Shown piece by piece: positions 17,168-34,230 of a DNA stretch of 40,462 bases (position 1 is its first letter; each line of letters begins with the position of its first letter). The notes beneath the pieces were generated by a model, which saw only the letters and a list, made by a program, of their open reading frames with translations, was not told the origin of the DNA and made no database searches. A program made the position numbers and the translations under genes. Source of the stretch: Actinomycetes bacterium (GTDB lineage Bacteria > Actinomycetota > Actinomycetes > Propionibacteriales > Propionibacteriaceae). The DNA lies in NCBI GenBank assembly GCA_021781735.1, contig JAJXWF010000008.1, forward strand, positions 1 through 40,462, in the 5' to 3' direction.

Positions 17168-18061
17168 CTACTTCATCGTGCCCTGGCTCACCGACCCCTG
17201 GAGTTGACGCTGGAAGATGACGTACACCACCAGCACCGGCGCGACCGTGATGACCACGGCGGCGAACAGGGCGCCGAAGTCGACCGAGTAACCGGCCTGA
17301 CTCGCGAACGCGCCCAGGCCCTGGGACAGCACGTAGTTCTTCTCGTTGGTGTTCAACGCCACGGGGATGAGGTACTGGTTCCACAGCCCGAGGAAGTTGA
17401 AGATCGCCACGGAGGCCAGGCCCGGGCGGGCCATCGGCAGCATGACGCTGAAGAACGTGCGCCAGTCTCCGGCCCCGTCGATGGCGGCCGCCTCGCTGAT
17501 CTCGTAGGGAAGTGCCCGGAAGAACGCGTACAGGAAGAACACCGTGAACGGCAACGCGAACGCCACATACGTGATGATGAGGCCGGGCAGGGTGTTGAGC
17601 AGGCCGAAGCCGCGCAACACGAAGAACAGCGGCACGATCGCGAGGAACACAGGAAAGGTGAGTCCCGCGAGCATCAGGTAGTAGATGACCCGCGATCCGA
17701 AGAACCGGAACCGGGCCAGCACGTAGGCGCACATGGCCCCGAGCAGCATGACGATCACCAGGGCCGAGCCGACCACGATGATCGTGTTGATGAAGTAGCG
17801 TCCGATGCCTGCGGTCGTCCAGGCGTGCGCGTAGTTGACCACTGCCGGTCGGGTGGGCAGCGTGAACGGCGAGTCGAAGATCTGGGTCGTCGTCTTGAAC
17901 GAGGTGACCAGCGTCCACAACAGGGGACCGACCACGAGCACCACCCACAGCACGAGCACCGCGTGCGCGATCGAGGCGACCGTGCGGTCGCCCGGATTGG
18001 TCCGCACGGTGCGGGGGTTGTCGGTGAGGGGGGTCGAGAGATTCGTCGTCGAGGCGCTCAT
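17168..18061 (-). CDS. Sugar ABC transporter permease (NgcG/MalG type)
   Basis: A 297-residue inner-membrane permease with six helices after a 30-residue cytoplasmic N-terminus. The EAA loop that docks the ATPase reads EAAAIDGAGDWRTFFSVMLP, and LYAFFRALPYEISEAAAIDG just before it is typical of the CUT1 MalG branch. It is the last gene of a three-gene importer operon; its ATG overlaps the stop of the partner permease by 4 bp (ATGA). By comparison of the binding protein with NgcE, the substrate is probably N-acetylglucosamine or chitobiose. Confidence 0.93.
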   Translation of the reverse strand: MSASTTNLSTPLTDNPRTVRTNPGDRTVASIAHAVLVLWVVLVVGPLLWTLVTSFKTTTQIFDSPFTLPTRPAVVNYAHAWTTAGIGRYFINTIIVVGSALVIVMLLGAMCAYVLARFRFFGSRVIYYLMLAGLTFPVFLAIVPLFFVLRGFGLLNTLPGLIITYVAFALPFTVFFLYAFFRALPYEISEAAAIDGAGDWRTFFSVMLPMARPGLASVAIFNFLGLWNQYLIPVALNTNEKNYVLSQGLGAFASQAGYSVDFGALFAAVVITVAPVLVVYVIFQRQLQGSVSQGTMK

Positions 18062-19068
18062 GCCAGCGTCACCGAATCCTTGCCCCCGGTGAGGCGATTG
18101 ACGAGGAACACCAGGCCGGCGAAGCTCATGGTGACCGCGGCGAGCACCACGCCCATGGCACAGGCGAGACCCCATTGCCCCTTGGTGAACGCGGTGCGGT
18201 AGAGGTACTGGCTCATGACCAGGGTGGAGTTGTTGGGTCCGCCGTTGGAGTTGAGGGCCTGCATGTACACGAACGCGTCGAGCGCGGCGATGCCGAGGTA
18301 GATGTAGGCCGTCTGCACGTTCTCACGGATGAGCGGCAGCGTGATCGTCAGCGCGGTGCGGAAGCGGCCGGCGCCGTCGATGCGCGCCGACTCGTAGATC
18401 TCACTCGGGATGCCCTTGATCGCGGCGATGAACAGCACCATGTAGAAGCCGACCAGGCCCCAGATGATGACGAACATCGATACGGGCATGGCGGTATCGA
18501 TGTTGCCCAACCACGGGAAGGAATCGAACTGCTTGAACCCGACGGCCGTGAGGATCCCGTTGACCAGGCCGTTCGACGGGTCGAACACCTGGCTCCACAT
18601 GATGCCGATGATGATCGCGGGGATCGTGTACGGGAAGAACGAGATCACCCGGTAGAAGCCGGCCGCGCTGAGGCCCCGGATCTGTCCGTGGCTGGAACCA
18701 CCGACGGTGATCAGCGTCGCCAGCGTCAGGGCGAGTGCGATCGTGACGAACGGCACCACGATCGCGAGTTCGACGCTGTTGCGGATCGACTTGAGGAAGA
18801 TGTTGTCGGTGAACGCCCTCGTGTAGTTGCTCAACCCGACATAGTCCATCTGCGGGTTGAACCCGGTCCAGTCGGTGAGGGAATAGTAGAAGGCCTGGAT
18901 GAAGGGGCTCACCACGAAGATCAGGTAGACCGAAAGCGGCAACCCGAGAAACGCGAGGAAGAACGTGACCCGATCGACGCTCCAGTTGCGTCGACGCCGC
19001 CGGCGCCCCGGGGTGGCCGTACGGGCCAGCCCCGGGGTCCGGCGGTGGGTGAATCCCTGAGCCGTCAC
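18058..19068 (-). CDS. Sugar ABC transporter permease (NgcF/MalF type)
   Basis: A 336-residue CUT1-family permease. A basic N-terminus (GRRRRRRNWSVDRV) precedes the first helix, then SPFIQAFYYSLTDWTGF, which is typical of MalF-like subunits. The EAA loop is YESARIDGAGRFRTALTITL with PLIREN after it. The GTG start overlaps the stop of the binding-protein gene (GTGA), and the end overlaps the next permease by 4 bp, so all three genes are translationally coupled. No ATP-binding subunit is present anywhere in the window; NgcEFG-type systems in Streptomyces use the shared ATPase MsiK, so a distant ATPase is expected. Confidence 0.93.
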   Translation of the reverse strand: MTAQGFTHRRTPGLARTATPGRRRRRRNWSVDRVTFFLAFLGLPLSVYLIFVVSPFIQAFYYSLTDWTGFNPQMDYVGLSNYTRAFTDNIFLKSIRNSVELAIVVPFVTIALALTLATLITVGGSSHGQIRGLSAAGFYRVISFFPYTIPAIIIGIMWSQVFDPSNGLVNGILTAVGFKQFDSFPWLGNIDTAMPVSMFVIIWGLVGFYMVLFIAAIKGIPSEIYESARIDGAGRFRTALTITLPLIRENVQTAYIYLGIAALDAFVYMQALNSNGGPNNSTLVMSQYLYRTAFTKGQWGLACAMGVVLAAVTMSFAGLVFLVNRLTGGKDSVTLA

Positions 19069-20492
19069 GAGACCGTGATCTTCTTGATCGTCGGGTCGTT
19101 GGCGATCTTGTCGGTGATCTGCTGCAGTCCGGCGGTGAGCTGCTTCACCGACGAGCCGCCGCCGAGGAATGTGTTCCACAGCACCAACTGGTCGGCGTTC
19201 ATGCCGTAGTAGTCGACGAACTGCCAGCTGAAGACGTCGGTGGCGGCGTTGTCGAGCATCTTGATCTGGCTCACCAACGCGGTCGACCCGAACCCGTCGG
19301 CGGGCACCGTGCCCTTGACGATCGTCGGAGCCAGCTTGGTCTTGGCGAAGTTGGTGGCGGCGTCCTTGCTCAGCATCACCCGCATGAACTCCTTGCCACC
19401 GGCGACGTTCTTCGCCTGGGTGGGCACGATGTAGCCCTCACCGGCGGTGGCGTGCAGGGCGGTGGCCGGCATCTGGGAGTTCTTGGTGACGGTGAGCTCG
19501 GGGGTGCCGGTCATCTTGAAGCCCGCCTTGGTCTGGGACTTCATCTCGTTCTCGATCCAGGAACCCGACGGGTAGAGCAGTGCCTGTTCCTGGCTCGACC
19601 ACTGCGCCTGTGCCTGGGTGAACTGGGTGCCCGAGCCGCCCGGCTTCACCATGCCGGCGTCGATGATCTTCTTCATCGCGGTGAAGACCTGCTGGATCGG
19701 GTCGAGGCTCCAGCACTTGGGCTTGAGGTTCTCCAGGGCCAGCCGCACATCGTTGCCGCCCTCCTTGATGGCCGAGCCGATCGCGGTGGTCTGGTAGTAG
19801 GTGGCGGCCTCCTTGCCCCACAGGAACAGGTACTTGTTCTTGGCCTTGGCCTCCTGGCCGAGTGCGTACGCCTCGTCCCAGGTTGTCGGCGGCTTCCAGC
19901 CGTTGGCGTCGAACATCGACTGGGAGTACCACAGGGCGTACACGGTCATCACGTAGTTGATCACGGCGAACTTGCCGTTGTAGGTGCCCGGCGCGGTGAC
20001 GCCGCCGTAGAGGGTGTCCTTGATCGGGGTGCCCTCGAGGTTGTTGGCCGCGAACACGTCAGTGAGATCCTCGATCTCGCTGAGGATCGTCTGGATGCCG
20101 ATGAGGTTGGCGCCGGAGTCGTCGATCACGTCCGGCGGGTTGCCGGCGTTGAACCGCGGCTGCAGGGTGGTGGCGATCGTGGTGGTGGGCGTGACCGTGC
20201 AGTTGGCGGCGTACGGCTGCTGTCCCATCAACTTGGCGGCGTACTGGGCGTAGTCGACGCCGTATCCACCGTTGAAGATCACGGCGTCGACGCTGGATCC
20301 CTTGGCGACGCCGAAGGGGTTGTCGGGGGAGGTGGACACCGCGCTGGTCGCGCTGGAGCCGCTCGTCGACGTCGTGTTGCCGGCGCCGCTCCCCGCGCAG
20401 GAGGCCAGGGTTCCCGCCAGGGGAATGACGGCCGCCGACGCGAGCAGGCTGCGACGCCCGATACGGGCCTGACCGAAGGACGAATTCTGCAT
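19065..20492 (-). CDS. N-acetylglucosamine/chitobiose-type ABC substrate-binding lipoprotein (NgcE-like)
   Basis: A 475-residue extracellular solute-binding lipoprotein. The signal has twin-arginine character (RRSLLASAAVIPLAG) and ends in the lipobox LASC with Cys32, followed by a Ser/Thr/Gly spacer. The body resembles Streptomyces NgcE in order and spacing: SPDNPFGV, VDAVIFNGGYGVDYA, LQPRFNAGNPPDVIDDSGA, YALWYSQSMFDANGWKPP, PSGSWIENEM, ATAGEGYIVPTQAKNVAGG and GKEFMRVMLSKDAATNF. I therefore favour N-acetylglucosamine or chitobiose as substrate; this is a recalled comparison, not an alignment. AGGAGA lies 6 nt before the ATG. It heads the importer operon and is divergent from SIS and kinase genes that fit amino-sugar use. 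Confidence 0.87.
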   Translation of the reverse strand: MQNSSFGQARIGRRSLLASAAVIPLAGTLASCAGSGAGNTTSTSGSSATSAVSTSPDNPFGVAKGSSVDAVIFNGGYGVDYAQYAAKLMGQQPYAANCTVTPTTTIATTLQPRFNAGNPPDVIDDSGANLIGIQTILSEIEDLTDVFAANNLEGTPIKDTLYGGVTAPGTYNGKFAVINYVMTVYALWYSQSMFDANGWKPPTTWDEAYALGQEAKAKNKYLFLWGKEAATYYQTTAIGSAIKEGGNDVRLALENLKPKCWSLDPIQQVFTAMKKIIDAGMVKPGGSGTQFTQAQAQWSSQEQALLYPSGSWIENEMKSQTKAGFKMTGTPELTVTKNSQMPATALHATAGEGYIVPTQAKNVAGGKEFMRVMLSKDAATNFAKTKLAPTIVKGTVPADGFGSTALVSQIKMLDNAATDVFSWQFVDYYGMNADQLVLWNTFLGGGSSVKQLTAGLQQITDKIANDPTIKKITVS

Positions 20493-20752
20493 GAACCATC
20501 TCCTGTGACAAGGCATTCCATGAATGACGTTACGCGGAAGCCGATTGGTGGTTGGCTGACAAACTAATGCGGGACGGCGGGCGTGTCGCTACCTCAGGGG
20601 CGTTCTGCACCGTTTCGCTCACTCTGATCGCGCGAAGTTGCACGCTTGTTACATTCCAGTGTCACCGGCGCGGCGGCCATCAGGGCCGCAATGGCCGGTT
20701 TCTGCGGCGTGTCGGGCGGTGAGCATTCGGGTTGTTCGCCGTTGCGGAGGTT

Positions 20753-20772
20753 GGTCCGACCGGTCCTAGAGT
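20753..20772 (+). promoter_or_regulatory. Overlapping palindromes and leaderless -10 before the SIS gene
   Basis: The 287-bp gap between ngcE-like and SIS genes holds GGTCCGACC (20753-20761) overlapping GACCGGTC (20758-20765), directly followed by TAGAGT (20767-20772), which ends 7 nt before the SIS ATG. A repressor there would block the promoter. The rest of the gap shows no gene; ngcE's promoter was not located with confidence. Confidence 0.4.
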
Positions 20773-20779
20773 TCCGCCC

Positions 20780-21547
20780 ATGAGCTCTGCCGAGAAGTTC
20801 CAACAAGAAGTCACGTCCAGGTTGCCGTTGCTCGTCGCCTCCGCCGCCGACGGCCCGATCGGCCGCGCGGCCGACCTGATGGCCGATTCGATCGCCGCCG
20901 GCGGCGTGGTGCACGCCTTCGGCAGCGGCCACTCCGAGGCCTTCGCGATGGAGGTCGCGGGACGGGCCGGAGGCCTGATCCCCACATCCAAGGCCGCGCT
21001 GCGCGACGTCGTCATCTGGGGTACGCGCGAACGCGGGTCACTCAACGGTTCCGATCTCGAACGCGACCCGAGCGTCGCCGTGGAACTGTATTCGCTCCAG
21101 TCGGACCACCCGGCCGACGTGTGGATCATCGCGTCCAATTCGGGTGTGAACGGGTCGATCATCGGCGTCGCCCAGGCGGTCAAGGACGCCGGCCACCCCC
21201 TCATCGCGGTCACCAGCCTGCAGCACACGATGGCCGTCAAGCCGAAGCACCCGTCGGGCAAGCGGCTCAGCGACCTGGCCGACGTGGTCATCGACAACCT
21301 GGCACCGTTCGGCGACACCACGGTGCCGCTCGAGCCGGGTGAACTCACCGAGGGGATGGTGGGGGGCGCGATCTCGTCGATCACCGGCGCGTTCATCGCC
21401 CAACTGCTCACCCTGGGTGTCGCCGAAAGGCTCGCGGCCCGGGGGATCCGGCCGCCGATGTACATCTCGGCGAACATCCCCGGCGGCGATGAGCACAACC
21501 GGGAGCTCACCGACACGTACGCGGGCCGACTGAGGATCGAGGCCTGA
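20780..21547 (+). CDS. SIS-domain sugar-phosphate protein (UPF0309-like)
   Basis: A 255-residue cytoplasmic protein with one SIS fold covering most of its length: VVHAFGSGHSEAFAMEVAGR (phosphosugar-binding loop), IIASNSGVNGSIIGVAQAVK and LIAVTSLQHTMAVKPKHPSG, then SDLADVVIDNLAPFGD. This is the UPF0309/SIS layout rather than MurQ or GlmS. SIS domains isomerise or sense phosphosugars; beside an NgcE-like importer and an N-acetylglucosamine-type kinase it probably acts on an amino-sugar phosphate, which is inference. The ATG is 7 nt after TAGAGT. The kinase gene follows 71 bp downstream on the same strand. Confidence 0.85.
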   Translation: MSSAEKFQQEVTSRLPLLVASAADGPIGRAADLMADSIAAGGVVHAFGSGHSEAFAMEVAGRAGGLIPTSKAALRDVVIWGTRERGSLNGSDLERDPSVAVELYSLQSDHPADVWIIASNSGVNGSIIGVAQAVKDAGHPLIAVTSLQHTMAVKPKHPSGKRLSDLADVVIDNLAPFGDTTVPLEPGELTEGMVGGAISSITGAFIAQLLTLGVAERLAARGIRPPMYISANIPGGDEHNRELTDTYAGRLRIEA

Positions 21548-21618
21548 ATCTGGCCCGCCACCCGTTAGGGTGCTGGCCATCCACCCGTGCGGTGAGGGGG
21601 GAAACCGACAGGAGAGTC

Positions 21619-22620
21619 ATGGTTCCGGCAGTCATTGCGGTTGATGCGGGGGGTACCTCGACCCGGGCGGCCGTCGTCGGCCTCACCGGGGACGTCCTGG
21701 GCGTCGGGCGCGCCGGTGCGGGGAACCCGATCTCGTCGGGTGTCGAACTGGCGACGGCGAACGTCGTCGAGGCGTGTCGGCAGGCGCTCGCACAGTCCGG
21801 CAACAGCGAGCGGATCGTGTCCTCGCTGGTCACCATGGCCGGGGGCGCCAACGGGTCGACGCCTACCGACGGGCTGGTTGCACGGCTCATCGACAGTGGC
21901 GTCCCGGGTCCGCTCGCCATCGACAGCGACGTGCTGAGCGCCTACTTCTCGGGAAGTCCGGCGTCCGAGGGCGCCGTGCTGATCGTCGGGACGGGGGCCG
22001 TGGCCGGCCGGATCAGCGACGGGCTCCTGGCGCGGGTGGCCGACGGTCTCGGCTGGCTGCTGGGGGACGCCGGATCGGGGTTCTGGATCGGGCGCCGCGC
22101 CGCGATCGCCGCCGCGGCCGATCTCGACGGGCGCGGGGAGCCGACCGCGCTGACCGACGACGTGCTGGCCGAGTACGGACTCTCCCGCGGACGCCGCAAG
22201 CGGACCGGGCGTCCGGAGGTGCTCTCCCCGCTCGTGCACGAGATCTACGGGCGGCGTCCGATCGAGCTGGCCAGGTTGGCCCCGATCGTGCTCCGGCACC
22301 CCGACGATCCCGTGGCCTCGCTGATCCTCGAGGGCGCCGCGAACGCCCTGACGAACACGATCACCTCGCTGCTGGGCGACGACGACGTCCCGTTGGTGCT
22401 GGCCGGGGGCCTGATCGGCCCTGCCAGCGCCCTGCACGACCGGATGTCCCAGCGCCTGGCCGGACGGCATTGCCTCACCGCCACCGACGGTCTCGCGGGG
22501 GCGGCGCTGATGGCACTTCGGCGGGTGGGGGCCGAGGCGAACCAGGCGGTCCACGCGCGCCTGGTGGCGGCCCTGGCCGCCCGCACCCTTCCCGTGGGAC
22601 CGCTCGGGGCCTCCCGGTAG
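21619..22620 (+). CDS. BadF/BadG-type N-acetylglucosamine kinase
   Basis: A 333-residue sugar kinase of the ASKHA superfamily (BadF/BcrA branch, which includes N-acetylglucosamine kinase). Visible sites are the phosphate-1 loop VDAGGTSTRAAV (residues 6-17), VGTGAVAGR, GDAGSGFWIGRRAA and the adenosine-motif region VPLVLAGGLIGP. It should phosphorylate an incoming amino sugar at the 6-hydroxyl. CAGGAGAG precedes the ATG. TAGGGT (21566-21571) in the gap after the SIS gene could be an internal promoter. The position next to the importer and SIS gene supports N-acetylglucosamine as substrate. A second kinase of the same family starts at 30158. Confidence 0.85.
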   Translation: MVPAVIAVDAGGTSTRAAVVGLTGDVLGVGRAGAGNPISSGVELATANVVEACRQALAQSGNSERIVSSLVTMAGGANGSTPTDGLVARLIDSGVPGPLAIDSDVLSAYFSGSPASEGAVLIVGTGAVAGRISDGLLARVADGLGWLLGDAGSGFWIGRRAAIAAAADLDGRGEPTALTDDVLAEYGLSRGRRKRTGRPEVLSPLVHEIYGRRPIELARLAPIVLRHPDDPVASLILEGAANALTNTITSLLGDDDVPLVLAGGLIGPASALHDRMSQRLAGRHCLTATDGLAGAALMALRRVGAEANQAVHARLVAALAARTLPVGPLGASR

Positions 22621-22636: not shown

Positions 22637-25156
22637 TCAGTCGGTGCCGGGGACGCCGCAGTAGCGGGCCAGGTGGCGTCCGGTGAGGGTGGAGGCGTCG
22701 GCCACGAGGGCTGCCGGGGTTCCCTCGAACACGACGAGCCCGCCGTCGTGGCCCGCGCCCGGACCGAGGTCGATGATCCAGTCGGCGTGGGCCATCACGG
22801 CCTGGTGGTGCTCGATGACGATCACCGAGTGCCCGGCGTCGACCAGCCGGTCGAGCAGGCCGAGCAGCTGCTCGACGTCGGCGAGGTGCAGGCCGGTGGT
22901 CGGTTCGTCGAGCACGTAGACACCGCCCGTGTCGCCGAGGTGAGTGGCGAGCTTGAGACGCTGGCGCTCACCGCCCGACAGCGTCGTGAGCGGCTGGCCC
23001 ACCGTCAGGTAGCCCAGCCCGACATCGACCAGTCGCTCGAGCACCGTGCGGGCCGCCGGGATCGGGACCCCGCCGGCGCCGAAGAACGCCAGTGCCTCGG
23101 CCGCGGTCATCGACAGCACCTCGTGGATGTTGCGGCCACCCAGGAGATGGTCGAGAACCGCCGGCTGGAAGCCCAAGCCGTCGCACTCCTCGCACACGGT
23201 GGTCACGGTGTCCATGAACCCGAGCTCGGTGTAGATGACGCCGGCGCCCTTGCAGGTGGAGCAGGCCCCCTCGGAGTTGGCGCTGAACAGGGCGGGCTTG
23301 ACGCCGTTCGCCTTCGCGAACGCCTTGCGGATGGGGTCCAGCAGGCCGGTGTAGGTGGCGGGATTGCTGCGTCGGGACCCCTTGATGGGGGCCTGGTCGA
23401 TCGTGACCACGCCATTGCGGGGTGACACGGACCCCTCGACGAGGGAACTCTTGCCGGATCCGGCGACGCCGGTGATCACGGTCAGGACGCCGAGCGGGAT
23501 GTCGACGTCGACGTCGCGCAGGTTGTGGTCGCGGGCCCCGCGGACCTCGAGCCGCCCGGTGGGGGTGCGCACGGCGTCCTTGACCCGGGCCCGATCGTCG
23601 AGGTGGCGTCCGGTGAGGGTGTCGCTGCGGCGAAGGCCGGCGACGCTGCCCTCGAACACGATCCTGCCGCCCGAGGTGCCCGCGCCGGGGCCGAGGTCGA
23701 CGGCGTGGTCGGCGATCGCGATGGTCTCGGGCTTGTGCTCGACGACCAGTACCGTGTTGCCCTTGTCGCGCAGTTGCAGCAGCAGCTCGTTCATCCGCTG
23801 GATGTCGTGGGGGTGCAACCCGATCGTCGGCTCGTCGAACACGTAGGTGACGTCGGTGAGCGACGACCCGAGGTGCCGGATCATCCGCACCCGTTGCGCC
23901 TCCCCGCCCGACAGGGTGCCCGACGACCGGTCGAGCGACAGGTATCCGAGACCGATCCGGACGAACGCGTCGAGATGGTCCTGCAGGGAGGCCAGCAGCG
24001 GCGCGACGCTGGGCTCGTCGAGGGTCCGCACCCAGGCCGCGAGGTCGCTGATCTGCCTCGCGCAGGCGTCGGCGATGCTGATGCCTGCGATCGTCGAGGA
24101 GCGGGCCGCGGTGCTGAGCCGGGTGCCGCCGCACTCGGGGCAGGTGGTGAAGGTGACCGCCCGCTCGACGAACGCCCGGATATGGGGCTGCATCGCCTCG
24201 ACGTCCTTGGAGAGCATCGACCTCTGGAGCCGGGGGATCAGCCCCTCATAGGTCATGTTGATGTTCGCGATCTTCATCCGGGTGGGCTCCCGGTAAAGCA
24301 GGTCGTGGCGCTCGCGCTTGCTGAACTCACTGATCGGCTTGTCCGCCGGGAAGAAGCCGGACGCCGCGTACAGGCGGTGGTTCCACCCGCCGGGGGTGTA
24401 GCCGGGCACCTTCAACGCCCCGTCGGCGAGCGACAGGTTCTCGTCGAACAGCTCGCGGAGCGCGATGTCGTTGACGTTGCCGATGCCTTCGCACCGGGGA
24501 CACATGCCGCCGGTGACGGTGTAGGTCTTCTTCGTGGCCATGGTCCGGTCCTCGCCGCGCTCCACGGTGATCGCGCCGCCGCCGTGCACGGTCGGGACGT
24601 TGAACGCGTACGCCTGGGGCGAGCCGATGTGTGGCCGGGCCAGCCGGCTGAACAGGATCCGCAGCAGCGCGTTGGCGTCGGTGACGGTGCCGACGGTCGA
24701 CCTGATGGTGGCACGCATCGGCTCCTGGTCGACGATGATCGCGGTGGTCAGCCCGTCGAGCACGTCGACGTCGGGTCGTGACAGCGTCGGCATGAACCCC
24801 TGGATGAACGCGCTGTACGTTTCGTTGATCATCCGCTGCGACTCGGCGGCGATCGTGCCGAACACGAGCGAACTCTTGCCCGACCCGGACACCCCGGTGA
24901 ACACGGTGAGCCGGCGCTTCGGCAGGTCGACGGAGACGTTCTTCAGGTTGTTCTCCCGCGCCCCCTGCACCCGGATGCGGTCGTGGGCGTCGGCCCGATG
25001 CGAGGCCGACGACTCTCCGGCCGGTTGCGGCGGTGGGGTGGGTTCGGGCTGCCCAGCGGGTTGGGTGGGTTCGGGTTGTTCGGTGGGTTCCGGCTGTCCG
25101 GGTTGTTCGGTGGGTTCCGGCTGTCCGGGTTGTTCGGTGGTCGAGGACGCTGGCAC
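22637..25156 (-). CDS. UvrA-like ABC ATPase lacking the UvrB-binding region
   Basis: An 839-residue tandem ABC protein of the short UvrA-like class (DrrC/UvrA2 type), not the roughly 950-residue repair UvrA. Both Walker A sites ([28 protein letters not shown]), both signatures ([22 protein letters not shown]) and both Walker B strands ([21 protein letters not shown]) are intact. Zinc-type CxxC pairs occur in [23 protein letters not shown] and CEECDGLG. Such proteins protect against DNA-binding drugs in some actinomycetes; the role here is unknown. The first 50 residues are Pro/Glu/Gln repeats. GTG at 25156 is chosen for the GGGAGGGA site just upstream; a GTG 16 codons earlier is possible. Confidence 0.9.
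25084..25137 (-). repeat. 27-bp tandem repeat encoding GQPEPTEQP
   Basis: Two identical 27-base units (25084-25110, 25111-25137) with degenerate copies on the gene-internal side encode a nine-residue Pro/Glu/Gln motif in the disordered N-terminus of the UvrA-like protein. The period is a multiple of three, so copy-number change keeps the frame. Confidence 0.9.
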
Positions 25157-25310
25157 GCTCGGTCCCTCCCGGTGATGTCCTGGTGGCACACCCGATCCTG
25201 CCACCTGATCCGAACGCTCTCTACCGGCCGGGCGGCCTCACGTGGGGGTGGGTTGAGCGCACCGGACGGCGTCCGCCCCGCCCGTCCGCTCGCCCGCGGT
25301 CGGGGCTCGG

Positions 25311-25466: not shown

Positions 25467-28400
25467 CTACAGCACCTGCCGCCCGAGGGTTCCGCGGAGC
25501 GACGTCACGTAGCCGTCGGACGCGGCGCGCTGGCGCTCGCCGCGGGCCCACGCGAGCCTGTCGGTGAGTCCGAGGCGCTCGACGGTGGCCGCGTTGGCCT
25601 CGACGGCGATGAAGGCCTCGAGGTCGGCGATCGCGCGGTCGAGTCGGCTCGCGTCGGCGTCCCGCTTGGCGGTGAGGCGGTCGGAGTACCACGGGGACGC
25701 GAGCACCGATCCGCGGGTGAACATCTGCCGGAACTCGGGGGTGGCGAGGGTCCAGCCCTCCTCGCTCACCCCATGGGCCATGATCTCGAGCAGTGCCCGC
25801 AGGGGCGGTACCGCCAGCGAAACCGTGCCGTCGGCGAAGTAGGCGCGGGCCACGCGCTCGTGGGTGCTGACGATGGTCTCGAGGGAATCGGCGAAGATGT
25901 CGAGGTCCTGGGTCTCGGGTCGGAGGATGGCCTCGTCGAACACCGCGTGCGGATGCATGAAGATGCGCCCGAAGTAGGTGGTGGCGAACTTGCGGGTCAT
26001 CCGGAAGCCGAGCCTGCCTGCGAGGATCGGGCGCCCGTCGTGGTCGAAGTCGACGAGCCGTTCGAGCGCGCCCTCGGCGAGGAGCGCGCCGGCGTCCCGC
26101 TCGGCGGGTGTCATCCGCGAGAACACCTCGGGCACGAGCAGGCTGAAGTCGTGGTCGATGCGGACCTTCGGCCCGACGTAGCCGGCGCACGACACCCACC
26201 CGTCGTAGCCGGTGAGCGCGTACGACAGGAACGCCGCGTTGAGGTCGATGATCGCGGGCAGCGCGTTGAAGGGCCCCTTGGTGAGCGCCCCTTCGGAGCC
26301 GGCGCCCGTGGTCGAGGGCGACTTGCCGGTCATCGAGCTGATGAACTCCATGAACAGTTCGGGCAACTCCATGTAGTGCAGCGGGTTGAACGGGCACAGC
26401 GCCGGAACACCCGGCTCCGGCGGGTTGTTGCGGCGTCCGGCGGCGACGACATCGACGGGCAGGGCCAGGCGCTCCGCGCCGGGGCGTCGGGCCTGCAGGT
26501 GGGCGGCAAGATCCGACGCGGCCGTGGCCAGCGGGTTGGCGAGGTCGGGACGCCGCTGCAGGTAGCGCGGGTTCTTCGAGCGTTGCCCCTCGACGATCCG
26601 GGGATCGGCGGACGACACGAAGTAGGCGGGCGAGGTCCCGTCGGGTTCGTCGGCGACGCGGGCGATGAGATCGCGCATGGGCTGGGTGAACGCGCTGAAC
26701 GCCCTGGCGTCGTCGCGCAGGTCGCGGGCGTCGGCGTGGGTCAGCGGCTCGAAGTTCGACAGGAAGGTGCCGGGGGTGGCGATGTCGCGTTCGGCCTGCT
26801 TGTCGTAGCCGCGGTGGATCGCGTCGTCGGGACGCTGGAACAGCAGCGTTTCGCAGTTCTGGACGAACTTGCGCGACGGCCCCTCGGGCGAGGGCAGCAC
26901 GACGCTCGCGGTGATGTCGTCCTCGGTCTGCACCTTGACGGCCGGGTTGAAGTCGGGACGCAGGGTGAACAACCGCCATGACCCGTCGGCCTCGAAGCCG
27001 ACCCGCAGCATCGTGGTCATCACCTTGTCGCCGTCGAGCCTCACGAAGTTGCCGAGCCGGCCGTTGATGCGGGCCACGCTGAAGTGCTCGCGCCAGTTGT
27101 CGCCCCACTCCGGTCGGGCGAACCGCTTGACGGTGAACACGAGTTCCTTGACGTACTGCGGGATCGCTTCGAGGAACGCGTTGTATTCGTCGGTGAAGTC
27201 GGGGGCGGGGGTCAGCAGCTTGATGACCGAGCCCATGCTGCGCTCCCTGCTGAGGATCGAGCGGTGATCGCCCGTGTCACCACTGGCGAACCGCCCGGAG
27301 TAGTCGCGCTCCAGCAGTGCGGTGACGCGGTCCATGTCGTCGTCGAAGTCGGGGGAGTAGAGGTTGCCGAAGATGAATGCATCGGCGATCGCCTTGCTGA
27401 TCTCGCTCTTGCCCCCACCCGACACGGTCGACGGTTTGTGGCAGGTGGTCGAGGTCGGTGAGACACCGACCAGCGTCCATTGGCCGGGGTCCGCGGCCAG
27501 CGGCTGCATCGACACCCGGTACCCGTCGGGCGCGAAGTAGGTGCGGTCGGCCCGCAGGCGGATATTGCGGGTCTCTCCCCGTGGGTCGACCCAGCTGACC
27601 GTGCGCTCGTCGAGGCTGAATGTGGGATTCGACGGGACGAGCACGAACTCGGGGTGCAGCGTGTCGAGCGCGTGCCCCTCGGGCCGGCGGATGAACCGGT
27701 CGGGGTCGCGGTCGAGTACGTCGGCGAGCCCGTAGCCGGCCTCGGAATAGGTGTCGATGAACGTGCTGCCGAGCGCGTAGCTGGGGAAGACCCGGGCCCC
27801 GCCGGAGTGCTCCTCCTCGGCGTTGCCGAGCAGGTTCGCCGAGTAGCTGATCTGGGTCTTGACCTCCTTCTTGCAGTAGCCGAAGTAGTTGTCGGCGATG
27901 ACGGTGACGATGACGCCGCGCTCGTCGCGGGCGCACGCCTTGAACGCCCGGCCGCCGTTGTACAGCTCGGACGCCTCCCGGTAGCACATGCCGTCGCGGC
28001 GCTGGCGCTCGGTGGCGTCGTCCCAGTGCGGCAGGCCGAGCGACTTCTTGGTGGCCCGGATCAGGTGCGGGGCCAGGACGACGCACCCGGTGTGGCCGGT
28101 CCATCGCTCGGGGTCGAGGGCGGCGTCGTGGTCGCTGAGGTAGGGGTCGCCGGCGGTGCCGAACACCCCTTCGACGAAGTCGAGGTTGGCGACCAGGCCT
28201 CCGGGCACGATGAAGCGGATCTCCATCCGCTTCTCGGGGGTGACGCCTGCCACTTCGGGGAGCACGAGCGGGCGCAGCAGCATCGACACGAAGCAGCGGG
28301 CCGACTCGGCGTCGCCACTCGTGTAGGGCAGGGTCTGGTCCGCGTCGGGTGGTTGGAAGGCGAGGTCGAGCAGGCGGGCGAACACGTCGCGGGGCACCGC

Positions 28401-28814
28401 GAGCTTGTCGTCGGGGATGGGCATGCCGCCCTCGGCCACGTGGAACACCCCGGCGGTGGTGCGCCTGTCGTTGGCAGGGTTGTGCAGGACCCCGTTGGCG
28501 AGCCGATGGCTCGTCAGCAGGTCGGAGCGGAACTCGTCGGCGTCGTGGGGAAGACTCAGTTCGCGAGCGAGGCCGGGCAGGTCGAGGATCAGCGTGCGCA
28601 GCGGCAACTGCGGACGCACCGGCGCCTCGGCGAGGTAGTCGTCGAGGTAGTCCTGGATCCGCTGGTCGGCCGCGCACGGCCGGTATTCGAGCCGGCGATT
28701 GAACTCCTGTTGCCGGGCGACCAGGGGTCCGACAAGGCTGTCCGGATCGGCTTCGGCGAGGCCCAGCAGGGCGAGGCGGAGGTTGATGGCCGCGGCAAGC
28801 GTCGGGTTCGCCAT
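25467..28814 (-). CDS. Putative PPi-dependent phosphoenolpyruvate carboxykinase
   Basis: A 1115-residue cytoplasmic protein whose length and motifs fit the PPi-type PEP carboxykinase of Propionibacterium and Entamoeba, which interconverts oxaloacetate + PPi and PEP + Pi + CO2. A P-loop-like [12 protein letters not shown] lies at 465-476, where ATP/GTP enzymes carry their kinase loop, and a second conserved-looking stretch, [20 protein letters not shown], at 828-847. Other landmarks are [18 protein letters not shown] and [19 protein letters not shown]. There is no similarity I can see to ordinary ATP or GTP PEPCK beyond the P-loop. GATACT (28826-28821 on this strand) ends 6 nt before the ATG, so it appears leaderless and singly transcribed. 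The family call is from memory without alignment. Confidence 0.72.
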
Positions 28815-28847: not shown

Positions 28848-29900
28848 TCAGCGGGTACCGGTAGGGGCCGTCCCGGACGTCGCGCCGCGCGCTGCCGGAC
28901 GCTCGCCCGACCCGCGCGGAATGTAGGTCAGGGGCAGCAGGCGGTGTTCTGGTGCGCCCGTCGGCTCGCCCATCCGATGGACGGCCAGCCGCGCCGCCAC
29001 GCGTCCCATCTCCTCGGCGTCGTGGGTGATCACCGACACGTCGAACAGGTCGGCGAACTCGAAGTCGTCGACGCCGACGACCGCCAGATCGAGGCGGCGC
29101 CGGGTGAGTTGGCGGATGATCGCGGCGGTGGCCCGGTTGTTGCCGCCGATGATGGCGGTGGGAGGGTCATCGGCGTCGAGGAGCGAGCTCACCAGGTCGT
29201 CGAGCGAGGTGTGCGGGTCGTCGGAGGTCCGCTCCCAGCGGGTGGTGGACTCTCCCGTCGCCTCGCGAACCGTCTGCCGGTAGGCGGCGACGCGCTGCTC
29301 CTGGGTGAACACCGAGCGGGGGTTGCACACGTAGCCGATCCTGGTGTGACCGTGCTCGAGCAGGACGCGGGCGGCGTCCCGGCCGCCCTGCGCGTTGTCG
29401 AGCAGCACCGAGTCGGCCAGCAGGTTGGGGGTGGGCCGGTCGATCGCCACGATGGCCGTGCCCAGGTGTCGCTCCTGGTCGAGGTGGGCGTAGTCGTCGA
29501 GGGAGGGGACCAGCAGGATGGCGCGCACCCGCTGGGCGACGAGGGTGTCGATGACGTCGGTCTCGCTGCCGGGATCCGCCGACGACGCGATCATCATCGT
29601 GAGCCCCTGCTCGGCGCAGACCTGCCCGATCCCCGCCGCCACGTGGACGTAGAAGGGGTTGGTCGGTTCGGGCGTCACGAACCCGACCGTGTGCGACACC
29701 GCCCCGCGGCGCAGGTCGCGTGCCAGCCGGTTGGGGGTGAAGTGCAGGCGGCGGGCGGCGTCCATCACCCTCGAGGTCGTGGCGGGGGACACCGACGCGG
29801 GTTCGGTGTAGACGCGCGACACGGTCTTCGCACTGACTCCGGCCAGCCGGGCGACGTCGGACATGGTGGCCCGCGAGCGTGGTGGTGCCATCGGATGCAT
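28848..29900 (-). CDS. LacI-family transcriptional repressor
   Basis: A 350-residue regulator. The N-terminal LacI helix-turn-helix and hinge are clear (MSDVARLAGVSAKTVSRVYT, then RLHFTPNRLARDLRRG), followed by a periplasmic-binding-like sugar domain to about 335 (HTVGFVTPEPTNPFYVHVAA, AIVAIDRPTPN, HTRIGYVCNP, AVVGVDDFEFADLFDVSVIT). It is divergent from the kinase-manA operon and two matching operator-like dyads lie between them, so it probably represses that operon and perhaps itself until a sugar or sugar phosphate binds. The ATG at 29900 is preferred for the nearby GGGAG; an ATG three codons later is equally plausible on protein grounds. Confidence 0.92.
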   Translation of the reverse strand: MHPMAPPRSRATMSDVARLAGVSAKTVSRVYTEPASVSPATTSRVMDAARRLHFTPNRLARDLRRGAVSHTVGFVTPEPTNPFYVHVAAGIGQVCAEQGLTMMIASSADPGSETDVIDTLVAQRVRAILLVPSLDDYAHLDQERHLGTAIVAIDRPTPNLLADSVLLDNAQGGRDAARVLLEHGHTRIGYVCNPRSVFTQEQRVAAYRQTVREATGESTTRWERTSDDPHTSLDDLVSSLLDADDPPTAIIGGNNRATAAIIRQLTRRRLDLAVVGVDDFEFADLFDVSVITHDAEEMGRVAARLAVHRMGEPTGAPEHRLLPLTYIPRGSGERPAARGATSGTAPTGTR

Positions 29901-29941: not shown

Positions 29942-29958
29942 ATGACAACGATAGACAT
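29942..29958. promoter_or_regulatory. LacI-type operator candidate 1
   Basis: ATGACAACGATAGACAT has the CG-centred dyad form of LacI operators. It matches the reverse complement of the second site (ATGTCAACGATGACAT) with one substitution and one extra base. It lies about 40 bp upstream of the regulator gene, where it could mediate autoregulation. Confidence 0.6.
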
Positions 29959-30042
29959 TCGGGGGATTTGCCGACAACCCGCCGAGGACCTGAGGATTCC
30001 GCGCAGCGAACGCGCACCGCTCGGGCGCCATCGGGATCTGAG

Positions 30043-30080
30043 ATGTCATCGTTGACATGCCGGGTGGAGGCGCCTAGGCT
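30043..30080 (+). promoter_or_regulatory. Promoter of the kinase-manA operon with overlapping LacI-type operator
   Basis: TTGACA (30052-30057) and TAGGCT (30075-30080) are 17 bp apart, an excellent primary-sigma promoter. The near-perfect CG-centred dyad ATGTCATCGTTGACAT (30043-30058) covers the whole -35, so a bound repressor would block RNA polymerase. The expected transcript has a leader of about 70 nt before the kinase ATG. Confidence 0.75.
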
Positions 30081-30157: not shown

Positions 30158-31096
30158 ATGAGTGAATCGACCAGCCTGGCCCTTGTCGTCGACTCGGGGC
30201 AGACCGACATCCGGGTGAGGGCGCTCGGCCCGGACGGCTTCGCAGCGACCTACCCGGGCGTGCGCACCAACGCGGGATTGCTGCCGCAGTTGGCGGGGGT
30301 GATCGGCGCCGCCACGCGGGAGTCCGGACGCACGTTCCCGGTGGTCGCGATCGGCACGTCCGGGCTCACCGAGGTCGACGACGATCCCGACCGTCTGCTG
30401 GGCCTGTGCCGCGAGGCCGGGGTTGTCGAGGTGCGCCTGGCGCACGACTCGATCACCTCCTACCTCGGGGCCCTGGGGCTCGGATACGGCGTGGTCGTGG
30501 CGGCCGGCACCGGGGTGGTCACTCTCGGCGTGGGCCCCGCGGGAGTTGCCCGGGTCGACGGATGGGGACATGTGATGGGCGACGCGGGCAGCGGATTCTG
30601 GATCGGGCGGGAGGCCCTGGAGGCGGTCATGCGGGCCCACGACGGTCGCGGCCCCAGGACCGCACTGACCGACGTCGTGCGCGACCGCTATCCGAATCTG
30701 GAGCGGGCCTACATCGAGATTCAGGCCGATCGCGACTGGGTCAGGGTGGTGGCGGGCTTCGCCAGGTCGGTGGCCGCCCTGGCGACGTCGGATCCGGTCG
30801 CCGGTGAGATCTGCCGGGCGGCCGGGTCGGAACTGGCCCAGTCGGCGGTCACCGCCCTGGCCAGGGCGGGACTCGAGCACGACCCCGCGCCGCGGGTCGC
30901 CCTGATCGGCGGCATCATGAAATCGGCCGTCATCCGGGACAGCTGCGAGGCGGGGATCCGTCGGGTCATGCCATCGGCCGGCATCGTGACGCCCGGCGGC
31001 GACGGATTGGCCGGAGCAGAGCTGCTGCTGGCGGTGTCCCACGACAACGCGCTGTCCGGGGCGGTCGCGATCGCCCGGCGGGCCCACCATGGCTGA
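30158..31096 (+). CDS. BadF/BadG-type sugar kinase, second copy
   Basis: A 312-residue ASKHA kinase related to the one at 21619, sharing GDAGSGFWIGREA and the same order of motifs: VVDSGQTDIRVRA (phosphate-1), VVAAGTGVVTLGV (phosphate-2) and RVALIGGIMKSAVI. The family includes N-acetylglucosamine and glucosamine kinases. CGGAGGAG precedes the ATG. It is the first gene under the LacI-type operator and overlaps manA by 8 bp, so its substrate is likely a hexose or amino sugar processed through mannose-6-phosphate or fructose-6-phosphate. The phosphate-1 loop has Gln where the other copy has Gly (GQTD versus GGTS), which could reflect a different substrate. Confidence 0.83.
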   Translation: MSESTSLALVVDSGQTDIRVRALGPDGFAATYPGVRTNAGLLPQLAGVIGAATRESGRTFPVVAIGTSGLTEVDDDPDRLLGLCREAGVVEVRLAHDSITSYLGALGLGYGVVVAAGTGVVTLGVGPAGVARVDGWGHVMGDAGSGFWIGREALEAVMRAHDGRGPRTALTDVVRDRYPNLERAYIEIQADRDWVRVVAGFARSVAALATSDPVAGEICRAAGSELAQSAVTALARAGLEHDPAPRVALIGGIMKSAVIRDSCEAGIRRVMPSAGIVTPGGDGLAGAELLLAVSHDNALSGAVAIARRAHHG

Positions 31097-32310: not shown

Positions 32311-33198
32311 TCAGTTGCTGGCCCCGGGCGACATGAGGACGGTCGCGGCCAGGGCGTGACCGTCCTCGACGGCCGGCACGAGGGCCGGCGGCGGCGCGTC
32401 CAGCAGATGCGGGTGACGCAGCACGTGGGTGAGGAATCCGGCGTTGAACGCGTCGCCCGCTCCGGTGAGGTCCCGGGGCGGGCGTCCCAGCGGAGGCACG
32501 GGTACGACGACCGGCTCGACGCCCGCCCGGACGATGAGGGTCGGTTCGCCACCGTGCCGGGCCAGCAGGGTCGCGCCGTGGGGTACCGATGCGGGTCCGA
32601 GCCGCAGCGCCCCGGTTTCGTGGGCGTTCGCGCTGATGAACCGGGGTGCCAGGTCGGCGACCAGTCGAGTGAAGGGATCCCGGCCCATCGCGTCGATGAG
32701 CGCGAGCGATGACACGTCGAGGCTCACCGCGATGCCGCGCTCGTGGGCGTCGGCGACGAGCCCGCGCATCGCCGCCGCCGTGGTGCCGGGTCCGAACGCG
32801 TACATCGGCACGTGCAGCAGGCCGACGCCGTCGAGCCACGACGGGTCGACCGCCTCGAGCCGGGCGGACGCGCCGCGGCTGGGGAACATGCTGCGTTCCC
32901 CGTCGGCGTCGATCATCACGACGATCGTGCCGGTGACGTCGCGCCACTGCAGGCGGACGTCGACGTCGTGGCCCTGCAGTTCCTGCTGCAGCACGTGGCC
33001 GCCGAGATCGGGTCCGACGCAGCCGATGAACCGTGTGGGGTGCAGTGGGCCGGCGAAGGCCGCGACGTTCGCCGCCGAGCCGCCGCGCTGGATCGACACC
33101 CGCGACCGGGTGTCGCTCCCGCGCCGCACGGGTTCGAGCTGCCAGACCACGACGTCCTGCACCAGGTCGCCGGCCACGGCGAGCATCGGGATGGCCAT
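32311..33198 (-). CDS. PfkB-family carbohydrate kinase, probable pseudouridine kinase
   Basis: A 295-residue ribokinase-family enzyme. The N-terminal GGSAANVAAFAG and the C-terminal DLTGAGDAFNAGFL, with its catalytic Asp and anion hole, mark the family. It begins 10 bp after psuG on the same strand. In other bacteria a PfkB kinase beside psuG phosphorylates pseudouridine at the 5' position, so pseudouridine kinase is the best guess, though a ribonucleoside or other sugar substrate cannot be excluded. The ATG at 33198 gives MAIPMLAVAGDLVQDVVVW, aligned with the usual family start; an internal ATG four codons later is also possible. Confidence 0.88.
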   Translation of the reverse strand: MAIPMLAVAGDLVQDVVVWQLEPVRRGSDTRSRVSIQRGGSAANVAAFAGPLHPTRFIGCVGPDLGGHVLQQELQGHDVDVRLQWRDVTGTIVVMIDADGERSMFPSRGASARLEAVDPSWLDGVGLLHVPMYAFGPGTTAAAMRGLVADAHERGIAVSLDVSSLALIDAMGRDPFTRLVADLAPRFISANAHETGALRLGPASVPHGATLLARHGGEPTLIVRAGVEPVVVPVPPLGRPPRDLTGAGDAFNAGFLTHVLRHPHLLDAPPPALVPAVEDGHALAATVLMSPGASN

Positions 33199-33208
33199 CG
33201 CCGTGGGC

Positions 33209-34120
33209 TCAGGCCGACGCCAGCGCAGTGGCGATCCGTGCCCCCAGCCGCACGTTGTTGAGATACAGCGCGACGTTGGCCTCGAGGCTCCGGTCGCCGG
33301 TCGCACGTCGGATGTAGTCGAGCAGGTAGGGCGTGGTGGCCTGTCCGCTGATCCGGTCGGCCTCCGCGGCCGCCCAGGCCTCCTCGATGACGGCGTCCAG
33401 GTCGTGCGGGTCGAGCGAGTCGGCCTCGGGGATCGGGTTCGCGATCAGCACGGACGCGGGCAGGCCCAGCGCCTGGGACGCGCGGAAGATTTCGGCGGCC
33501 TGTCCGGGGGTCTCGATCCGCGACGTCAGCCGGTGGCCCGAGGAGCGCACGTAGAACCCCGGATAGTCGAGGGTGCGGTAGCCGATGACCGGCACGCTCA
33601 GGGTCTCGAACCGCTCGAGGGTGGCCGGAATGTCGAGGATGGCCTTGGCGCCCGAGCTGACGAGCACGATCGCCTCGTGGGCGAGGGTCACCAGGTCGGC
33701 CGACTCGTCGAACGTCGTCGACGCGTGGTGATGGACGCCGCCGAGACCGCCGGTCGAGAACACCGAGATGCCCGCGCGACGGGCGAGCAGCGTGGTCGCG
33801 GCGATGGTGGTGCCCGCGTTGCGTCCGAGGGCCGCGCACACCGGAAGGTCGCGCACCGAGGCCTTCGCCACGTCGTCGTCGTGGGCCAGCCGCTCGATCT
33901 CCCCACCCGACAGGCCGACGACCCCGACACCGTCGACGACCCCGATCGTCGCCGGGACGACGCCGAGCTCGCGCGCAACCCGCTCGCCCCTGGCGGCGAC
34001 CTCGACGTTGCGGGGGCGCGGGAGTCCGTGGGTGAAGATCGTGGATTCCAGGGCCAGCACCGGGCGTCCGGCGGCGACCGCGTCGGACACTTCCTCGCTG
34101 ACACGGATCGGCTCGTTCAT
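33209..34120 (-). CDS. psuG: Pseudouridine-5'-phosphate glycosidase
   Basis: A 303-residue enzyme that splits the C-C bond of pseudouridine 5'-phosphate to uracil and ribose 5-phosphate. Family landmarks are ALESTIFTHGLPRPRN with the catalytic Glu25, DDVAKASVRDLP with Lys86, STGGLGGVHHHA, and SSGAKAILDIPATLE with the catalytic Lys159, then IANPIPE. Using the ATG at 34120 leaves 7 nt to GGAG; an ATG two codons upstream would sit too close to it. The pfkB kinase follows immediately, completing the two-step pathway. The uracil released could be salvaged by the upp product also encoded in this window. Location is cytoplasmic. Confidence 0.95.
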   Translation of the reverse strand: MNEPIRVSEEVSDAVAAGRPVLALESTIFTHGLPRPRNVEVAARGERVARELGVVPATIGVVDGVGVVGLSGGEIERLAHDDDVAKASVRDLPVCAALGRNAGTTIAATTLLARRAGISVFSTGGLGGVHHHASTTFDESADLVTLAHEAIVLVSSGAKAILDIPATLERFETLSVPVIGYRTLDYPGFYVRSSGHRLTSRIETPGQAAEIFRASQALGLPASVLIANPIPEADSLDPHDLDAVIEEAWAAAEADRISGQATTPYLLDYIRRATGDRSLEANVALYLNNVRLGARIATALASA

Positions 34121-34230
34121 GGGCATGCTCCGATCGGGGAGGTGCTGTGGATGGGACCTCGTAGGCGAGGAGGGTCACGCTCGGCGCGCGCAGCGAGTGG
34201 TCTGGGCCGTCGGCGTGTTTCGATCTTCTC

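Follow-up and report, generated by a model that had tools for sequence, protein, structure and literature searches.

Two predicted operators of unequal form beside a LacI-family gene, mostly kept at nearly the same distance in relatives

Two similar palindromes lie in the gap between a LacI-family repressor gene and divergent genes for a sugar kinase and a mannose-6-phosphate isomerase, and the locus raises the question of whether they are operators of the adjacent repressor and whether they act singly or as a pair. The window, that is the whole stretch of 40,462 nucleotides analysed, is contig C33 of a 3.19 Mb actinomycete genome (G000) in 285 contigs. An earlier note on this DNA had taken the palindromes for LacI operators and had predicted control of the kinase-manA operon by the adjacent LacI protein. 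The features concerned are as follows.

29942-29958, strandless: O1, predicted lacI-side operator, ATGACAACGATAGACAT; core TGACAACGATAGACA, 15 bp (6+CG+7), one half-site being one base longer
30043-30058, strandless: O2, predicted kinase-side operator, ATGTCATCGTTGACAT; core TGTCATCGTTGACA, 14 bp (6+CG+6)
29959-30042, strandless: DNA between the operators, the proposed loop
30052-30057, plus strand: TTGACA, -35 of the kinase-manA promoter, inside O2
30075-30080, plus strand: TAGGCT, -10 of the same promoter, spacer 17
29972-29977, minus strand: TTGTCG, likely lacI -35, in the best -35/-10 pair on this strand by consensus match only
29948-29953, minus strand: TATCGT, likely lacI -10, inside O1, by consensus match only
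28848-29900, minus strand: lacI, LacI-family repressor, 350 aa; PF00356 (LacI) and PF13377 (Peripla_BP_3) above cut-off
30158-31096, plus strand: sugar kinase of the BadF/BadG/BcrA/BcrD ATPase family, 312 aa; Pfam PF01869
31089-32303, plus strand: manA, class I mannose-6-phosphate isomerase, 404 aa; TIGR00218 above cut-off, PF20511

The dyads, the promoters and the proteins

Both dyads were found, letter for letter, where the earlier note had placed them, as was its promoter TTGACA-N17-TAGGCT with the -35 inside the second site, and its distance of about 100 bp from centre to centre is borne out at 101 bp from CG to CG, or 100.5 bp between dyad midpoints. Its description of the sites as versions of one dyad holds in that both are of the same kind, but not in full, as the core of O1 is 15 bp and that of O2 14 bp. 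O2 is a 16-nt even palindrome with a central CG and one mismatched pair, and O1 is an odd 17-nt form. Both have the form expected of LacI/GalR operators, for which PMC4052901 gives the rule of an even palindrome with central CG and a length of 16-22 nt, odd forms being found for about 4% of regulators.

With a generic sigma-70 scan the gap shows no promoter; TAGGCT matches TATAAT at three of six positions, and the scan requires four. Toward lacI there is a promoter-like pair, TTGTCG-N18-TATCGT (29977-29948, minus strand). O1 covers the -10 of this likely promoter and is therefore a natural candidate for an autoregulatory site. Going beyond the earlier note, we prefer to see in O1, first of all, an operator of the lacI gene, and by its position it is probably also the site of autoregulation.

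The lacI gene starts with the ATG at 29900, and there is a second in-frame ATG at 29891. Its product has the helix-turn-helix domain PF00356 at 12-57 and the periplasmic-binding-protein-like sugar domain PF13377 at 178-331, both above cut-off, which places it in the LacI family; 17 NCBIfam models matched it, none at cut-off. Repressors that are tetrameric in the manner of E. coli LacI have a leucine-rich tetramerisation helix at the C-terminus. No such helix is visible in the window LacI, which has 17 leucine-free residues after RGSGE. With regard to the divergent genes, kinase and manA overlap by 8 bp; solved relatives of the kinase include an N-acetylmuramic acid/GlcNAc kinase and a hexokinase, and Microbacterium is among its matches.

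Recurrence beside orthologous lacI genes and extent of the regulon

At a cut-off of E <= 1e-60, the search of 198 genomes of the family gave LacI orthologues in seven, that of the window included. Dyads precede lacI in each of the six others, and in L080 the distal dyad has another form. Further matches came from the class (14 of 394 genomes, again with our own), from one family of the class (17 of 398), from another family (3 of 22, all already known) and from one genus (58 of 366). Our set comprises 60 loci, that of the window among them, in 59 genomes, since G842 has two copies (L149 and L159). Class matches G248 and G559 were left out; 28 of the 58 genus matches have no locus from that search, and of these G539, G400 and G600 are covered through the class search while 25 are left out. 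The orthologous LacI proteins are about 45-62% identical to that of the window.

The earlier note had made its reading depend on conservation of the dyad upstream of orthologues, and dyads do recur beside orthologous lacI genes. The 31 upstream regions compared with dinucleotide shuffles (window included) yield 46 perfect TGWC..CG..GWCA dyads where 0.6 are expected, and at seven of eight matching positions 80 against 10.9. All 60 regions together hold 81 perfect dyads, with at least one in 59 and at least two in 21, and many regions have a distal site with a single mismatch (AGAC for TGWC). In 56 of the 60 loci the lacI-side dyad reaches a score of 8.5 or more out of 9; L142, where the divergent gene is by eye kinase-like as in the window, has none at a threshold of 7. 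A pair can be measured at a loose threshold in 59 loci, 54 of them with at least 8.5 of 9 on the lacI side and at least 7.5 of 9 for the distal site.

These numbers make it hardly credible that the dyads are chance palindromes. Only the shortness of each site speaks for such an origin, and it is refuted by the conservation and by the score of O2, which reaches 24.0 bits with a leave-one-out matrix against 2.7 for the next best in the region. It could also be that the dyads belong to a LacI-family paralogue or to some other regulator, with the adjacent LacI acting elsewhere. There are 21 LacI-family matches in G000, and in a control set of 28 regions of more distant LacI genes we found 8 perfect dyads in 6 regions, so that a paralogue could share the sites. 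However the dyads accompany the orthologous lacI in different families and beside divergent genes that vary, and the exact O2-type motif occurs nowhere else in the genome, so we regard another owner of the sites as improbable. A second control, the regions of 28 kinase homologues that have no orthologous lacI immediately next to them, gave 0 perfect dyads (L065 was too short and was left out, and for L061, in G091, an orthologous lacI lies some 7 kb upstream); it is a weak control because several of the kinases are inside operons and their upstream DNA is coding. That the dyads are operators of the adjacent LacI is on this evidence very probable.

The placing of the operator on the -35, as described in the earlier note, applies to the window and to most family orthologues: five of the six (L078, L079, L081, L082 and L083, the exception being L080) have TTGACA inside the second site followed by TANNNT at 17-18 bp. 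It does not extend to most class-level relatives, in which the best-scoring -35 sits 13-17 bp downstream of the O2 CG (39 of 52 measured loci).

A genome search for the dyad had been proposed as the way to define the regulon, and it places the exact O2-type motif at the lacI locus only. The O2 16-mer is present once without mismatch in the 3.19 Mb genome, and among 15 genomes the exact motif was found only beside lacI, in three (G000, G180 and G187), so the regulon looks local. Sites upstream of both the regulator gene and the divergent operon, as for a local autoregulated regulon, are present in the 59 of 60 loci with a pair. A wider regulon in G000 was considered and rejected: there are 11 other places at two mismatches, and between 4 and 24 strand-matches to the O2-type motif turn up in genomes where no LacI orthologue reaches E <= 1e-60, so that two-mismatch matches look like background. 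Within the window the pattern recurs at 8 other places with three mismatches and at none within two. GH2 homologues are encoded elsewhere in this genome, on C140 and on C91 with C150, the latter perhaps two pieces of one gene; no convincing dyad was found in the fetched flanks of either. A search of open-access literature found no title about this regulator.

The genes near lacI in relatives give an indication of the sugar. The kinase is near lacI in four (L078-L081) and manA in L080 and L082. A solute-binding protein, two permeases and the kinase are near lacI in L079; in L080 there are a solute-binding protein, permeases, a GH2 glycosidase, the kinase and manA; in L082 a binding protein, permeases, a protein that is GH2-like by eye, and manA; and in L081 an ABC transporter of another type with the kinase. 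In L078 the kinase follows a reading frame labelled GH2-like by eye, for which Pfam gave no match. The GH2 domains of the L080 glycosidase score above cut-off and its Ig_mannosidase match falls narrowly short, and our reading is that the enzyme is a beta-mannosidase. From these transporter, GH2, kinase and manA partners the gene content points to use of mannose or beta-mannosides. According to PMC4052901, ManR-type LacI regulators form five orthologous groups for mannose and mannoside pathways, and our protein resembles them as a member of the LacI family with a probable link to mannose or mannosides.

We suggest that the LacI protein encoded at 28848-29900 represses genes for mannose or mannoside use locally and is autoregulated, a reading to which, leaving any loop aside, we give a probability of about 0.8. 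The conserved dyads, with kinase and manA near lacI in relatives, support the predicted control of kinase-manA by the adjacent LacI, and its repression of both promoters is likely. The kinase-manA operon thereby gains a candidate regulator and an operator motif.

There are other frames around the locus. An 1115-aa frame with strong coding bias (25467-28814, minus strand) begins 33 bp past the end of lacI, with which it could be co-transcribed; it gave no match in Pfam or NCBIfam. Beyond it is a UvrA-like ABC protein of 855 aa (22637-25204, minus strand) with a score below the UvrA cut-off. On the other side, 32311-34126 (minus strand) holds a PfkB-type kinase-like frame with weak ribokinase-type matches, adjoined by a frame that by eye resembles pseudouridine-5'-phosphate glycosidase. 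A second sugar cluster at 17168-22620 has a solute-binding protein (Pfam SBP_bac_1) and two frames that are permease-like by eye, with a SIS-like frame and another BadF-type kinase-like frame, also by eye, on its divergent side. This cluster looks like one for amino-sugar uptake, and the O2-type pattern has no match in it.

Distance between the operators

In the 59 loci with a pair, the spacing from CG to CG is 109-113 bp in 40 (111 bp in L079 of G188), 122-124 bp in 4, 131-133 bp in 5 and 101 bp in the window. The other nine are at 51, 76, 76, 98, 139, 148, 151, 157 and 175 bp, among them L149 (98), L172 and L176 (76), L146 (157) and L158 (175, with a weak distal site). L142 is left out of all spacing counts, its lacI-side site being below threshold, and weak sites are retained for L158 (distal) and for L137, L146 and L148 (lacI side). 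Where the distal site is even, 48 of 53 loci are at 101, 109-113, 122-124 or 131-133 bp.

Over 280 equal-length pairs of the 109-113 bp loci, the inter-operator DNA shows 38% identity when compared without gaps, so length has been kept better than letters. On a quick LacI tree with 20 open forks, the fewest length changes that are needed number 28 for the operator-to-operator interval and 49 for that from lacI to O1. In the best sampled genus (L160-L188) 24 of 29 loci are at exactly 111 or 112 bp, and in the same 24 the distance from lacI to O1 ranges from 59 to 82. A spread of 0.47 bp in operator spacing holds for loci already limited to 109-113 bp, so we rely instead on the unfiltered counts and on the tree. 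We see in these a clear sign, at the sequence level, that the distance between the operators is under evolutionary constraint. As relatives mostly keep the pair at nearly the same distance, the two sites probably work together, perhaps by DNA looping. In the 111-112 bp loci of this genus we also note a third half-site, GACAT, roughly one helical turn inward from O1, a GGACA at a similar distance ahead of O2 and, mid-way, a short conserved element, and such conserved bits could also fix the length.

If shifts from 111.5 bp are tallied by hand and treated as independent, five of eight are no more than 1.5 bp off a whole turn (P 0.048), as are four of seven without L158 (P 0.11) and four of six without L158 and L146 (P 0.06). 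The reference and the tolerance were picked after seeing the data, so phasing is only suggestive. Strict periodicity was considered and is not established, the P values being borderline and there being off-class loci, of which the 76-bp case is well defined. The earlier note had called the sites close enough for looping; the conserved spacing makes a loop plausible, but nine loci are elsewhere and the phasing is borderline.

DNA looping by LacI-family proteins is known best from the lac and gal systems of E. coli. In the lac system O1 is an odd operator. The likeness to lac is in the protein family, in an operator over a promoter and in odd and even operators for one protein (LacI with O1, O2 and O3). 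However E. coli LacI is a tetramer, whereas the orthologues here end 3-23 residues after RG[ST]GE (L158 is without the motif), and operator sequence and sugar are different. Spacing-dependent repression by lac was measured between 57.5 and 155.5 bp, according to PMC1762422. For gal, PMC4693257 describes GalR dimers that loop the DNA between operators 113 bp apart (OE-OI), with the best repression at 103, 113, 123 and 133 bp and its relief at 108, 118 and 128 bp. Those optima are near the 101, 109-113, 122-124 and 131-133 bp of our loci, and gal resembles them further in a LacI/GalR-family protein bound as dimers to two short operators, which here is predicted. It differs in that both gal operators flank the promoters of one operon, whereas here each operator sits at one of two divergent promoters, of which one belongs to the repressor gene itself, and in that the gal loop requires HU and supercoiling, the loop here being a predicted one. 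For other LacI-family regulators with double sites, PMC4052901 reports more than one site for about 20% of regulated operons, with helical spacing read as cooperative binding; the spacing peaks there are 13, 22 and 32 bp, in contrast to the usual 109-113 bp here.

In the mechanism that we propose, when inducer is absent one LacI dimer would sit on O2 and cover the -35 of the kinase-manA promoter, and another would occupy O1 and with it the lacI promoter. Contact between the two dimers may close the intervening stretch of roughly 100 bp into a loop, like the one formed by GalR at the gal operon, and a shared loop would couple both promoters. With no tetramerisation helix visible, the contact would be gal-like, dimer to dimer. 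An inducing sugar, for which the genes suggest mannose, mannose-6-phosphate or a short beta-mannoside, would release the dimers; the kinase would then make a hexose phosphate, its substrate again being suggested by gene content, and ManA would convert mannose-6-phosphate to fructose-6-phosphate. The help of O1 would matter more in the class-level loci, with their -35 13-17 bp downstream of the O2 centre, than in the window.

For physical contact between the bound dimers we put the odds at even. A little below even we place the possibility that the two operators are independent and unlooped, their distance being kept for another reason, for example by two promoters and a factor bound between them. 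Each operator of the window overlaps its own promoter-like sequence, so no loop is needed for repression, and 72% of the LacI-family regulators studied are autoregulated according to PMC4052901. The conserved bits between the operators in one genus, the loci that break the spacing rule and the borderline phasing of independent shifts also agree with it. However it leaves the near-fixed spacing in L160-L188 hard to reconcile with the drifting distance to lacI, and divergent promoters alone do not account for steps near the helical turn. In the 39 class-level loci with O2 upstream of the best-scoring -35, moreover, a lone dimer would be expected to block poorly.

Whichever applies, the kind of system is itself known, and what is added to the earlier note is the inequality of the sites and the constrained distance. 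A spacing kept across families while the DNA between has diverged is a natural record of the spacing rule, and the loci offer natural spacer variants of 76, 98, 101, 111, 122, 132 and 151 bp for testing it.

Unequal half-sites

We call a half-site short if it has six bases to the CG and long if it has seven. Over the 59 loci the distal, metabolic-side operator is short/short in 53 and long/short in 6, whereas on the lacI side 46 loci have a short/long operator, 6 a long/long and 7 a short/short one. The usual core is thus 14 bp on the metabolic side and 15 bp on the lacI side. Distal sites were picked by a leave-one-out short/short matrix, a choice that favours that form.

CytR of E. coli reportedly has a relaxed spacing between operator half-sites; here, by contrast, the difference is one base in a half-site and goes with position. 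PMC4052901 gives even palindromes for 1251 of 1303 LacI-family regulators, with a spacing usually constant within an orthologous group, and an inserted position, NT-2bis, is noted for the YQ class of the family in PMC2978694. Our loci suggest that one regulator tolerates operator cores of 14, 15 and 16 bp, depending on position, and we infer that the lacI-side operator is bound more weakly or with another geometry. More tentatively still, and with somewhat less confidence than for either account of the spacing, we propose a wider reading: a dimeric repressor family of actinomycetes would loop its own promoter together with a sugar operon, keeping the loop length within 1-2 bp or changing it by whole helical turns while the looped sequence is mostly rewritten, with the even operator on the metabolic side and the one-base-longer operator at its own gene, a difference that would set unequal affinities and with them the order of derepression.

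There are several minor observations on operator form. Two of the more distant LacI genes, L028 and L033 (31-32% identical), have two perfect dyads each upstream of lacI, exactly 100 bp apart, one short/short and one long/long. In L136-L141, L146 and L160-L188 there is, by eye, a second LacI-type palindrome near or downstream of O2, of GGGAGCGCTNCC, TAAAGCGCTTTA or GAANCGNTTC form, which in many of these relatives lies on or next to the likely promoter and may point to a second regulator. The long/short distal sites are at spacings of 51, 110, 113, 139, 148 and 151 bp, and in L137, L171, L180 and L184 such a site, for example TGTCCTACGCTGTCA, is 51, 139, 148 or 151 bp from the lacI-side site. 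That of L137 falls by eye on the likely -10, and direct blocking of a -10 might make a loop needless and so allow the odd spacings of such loci.
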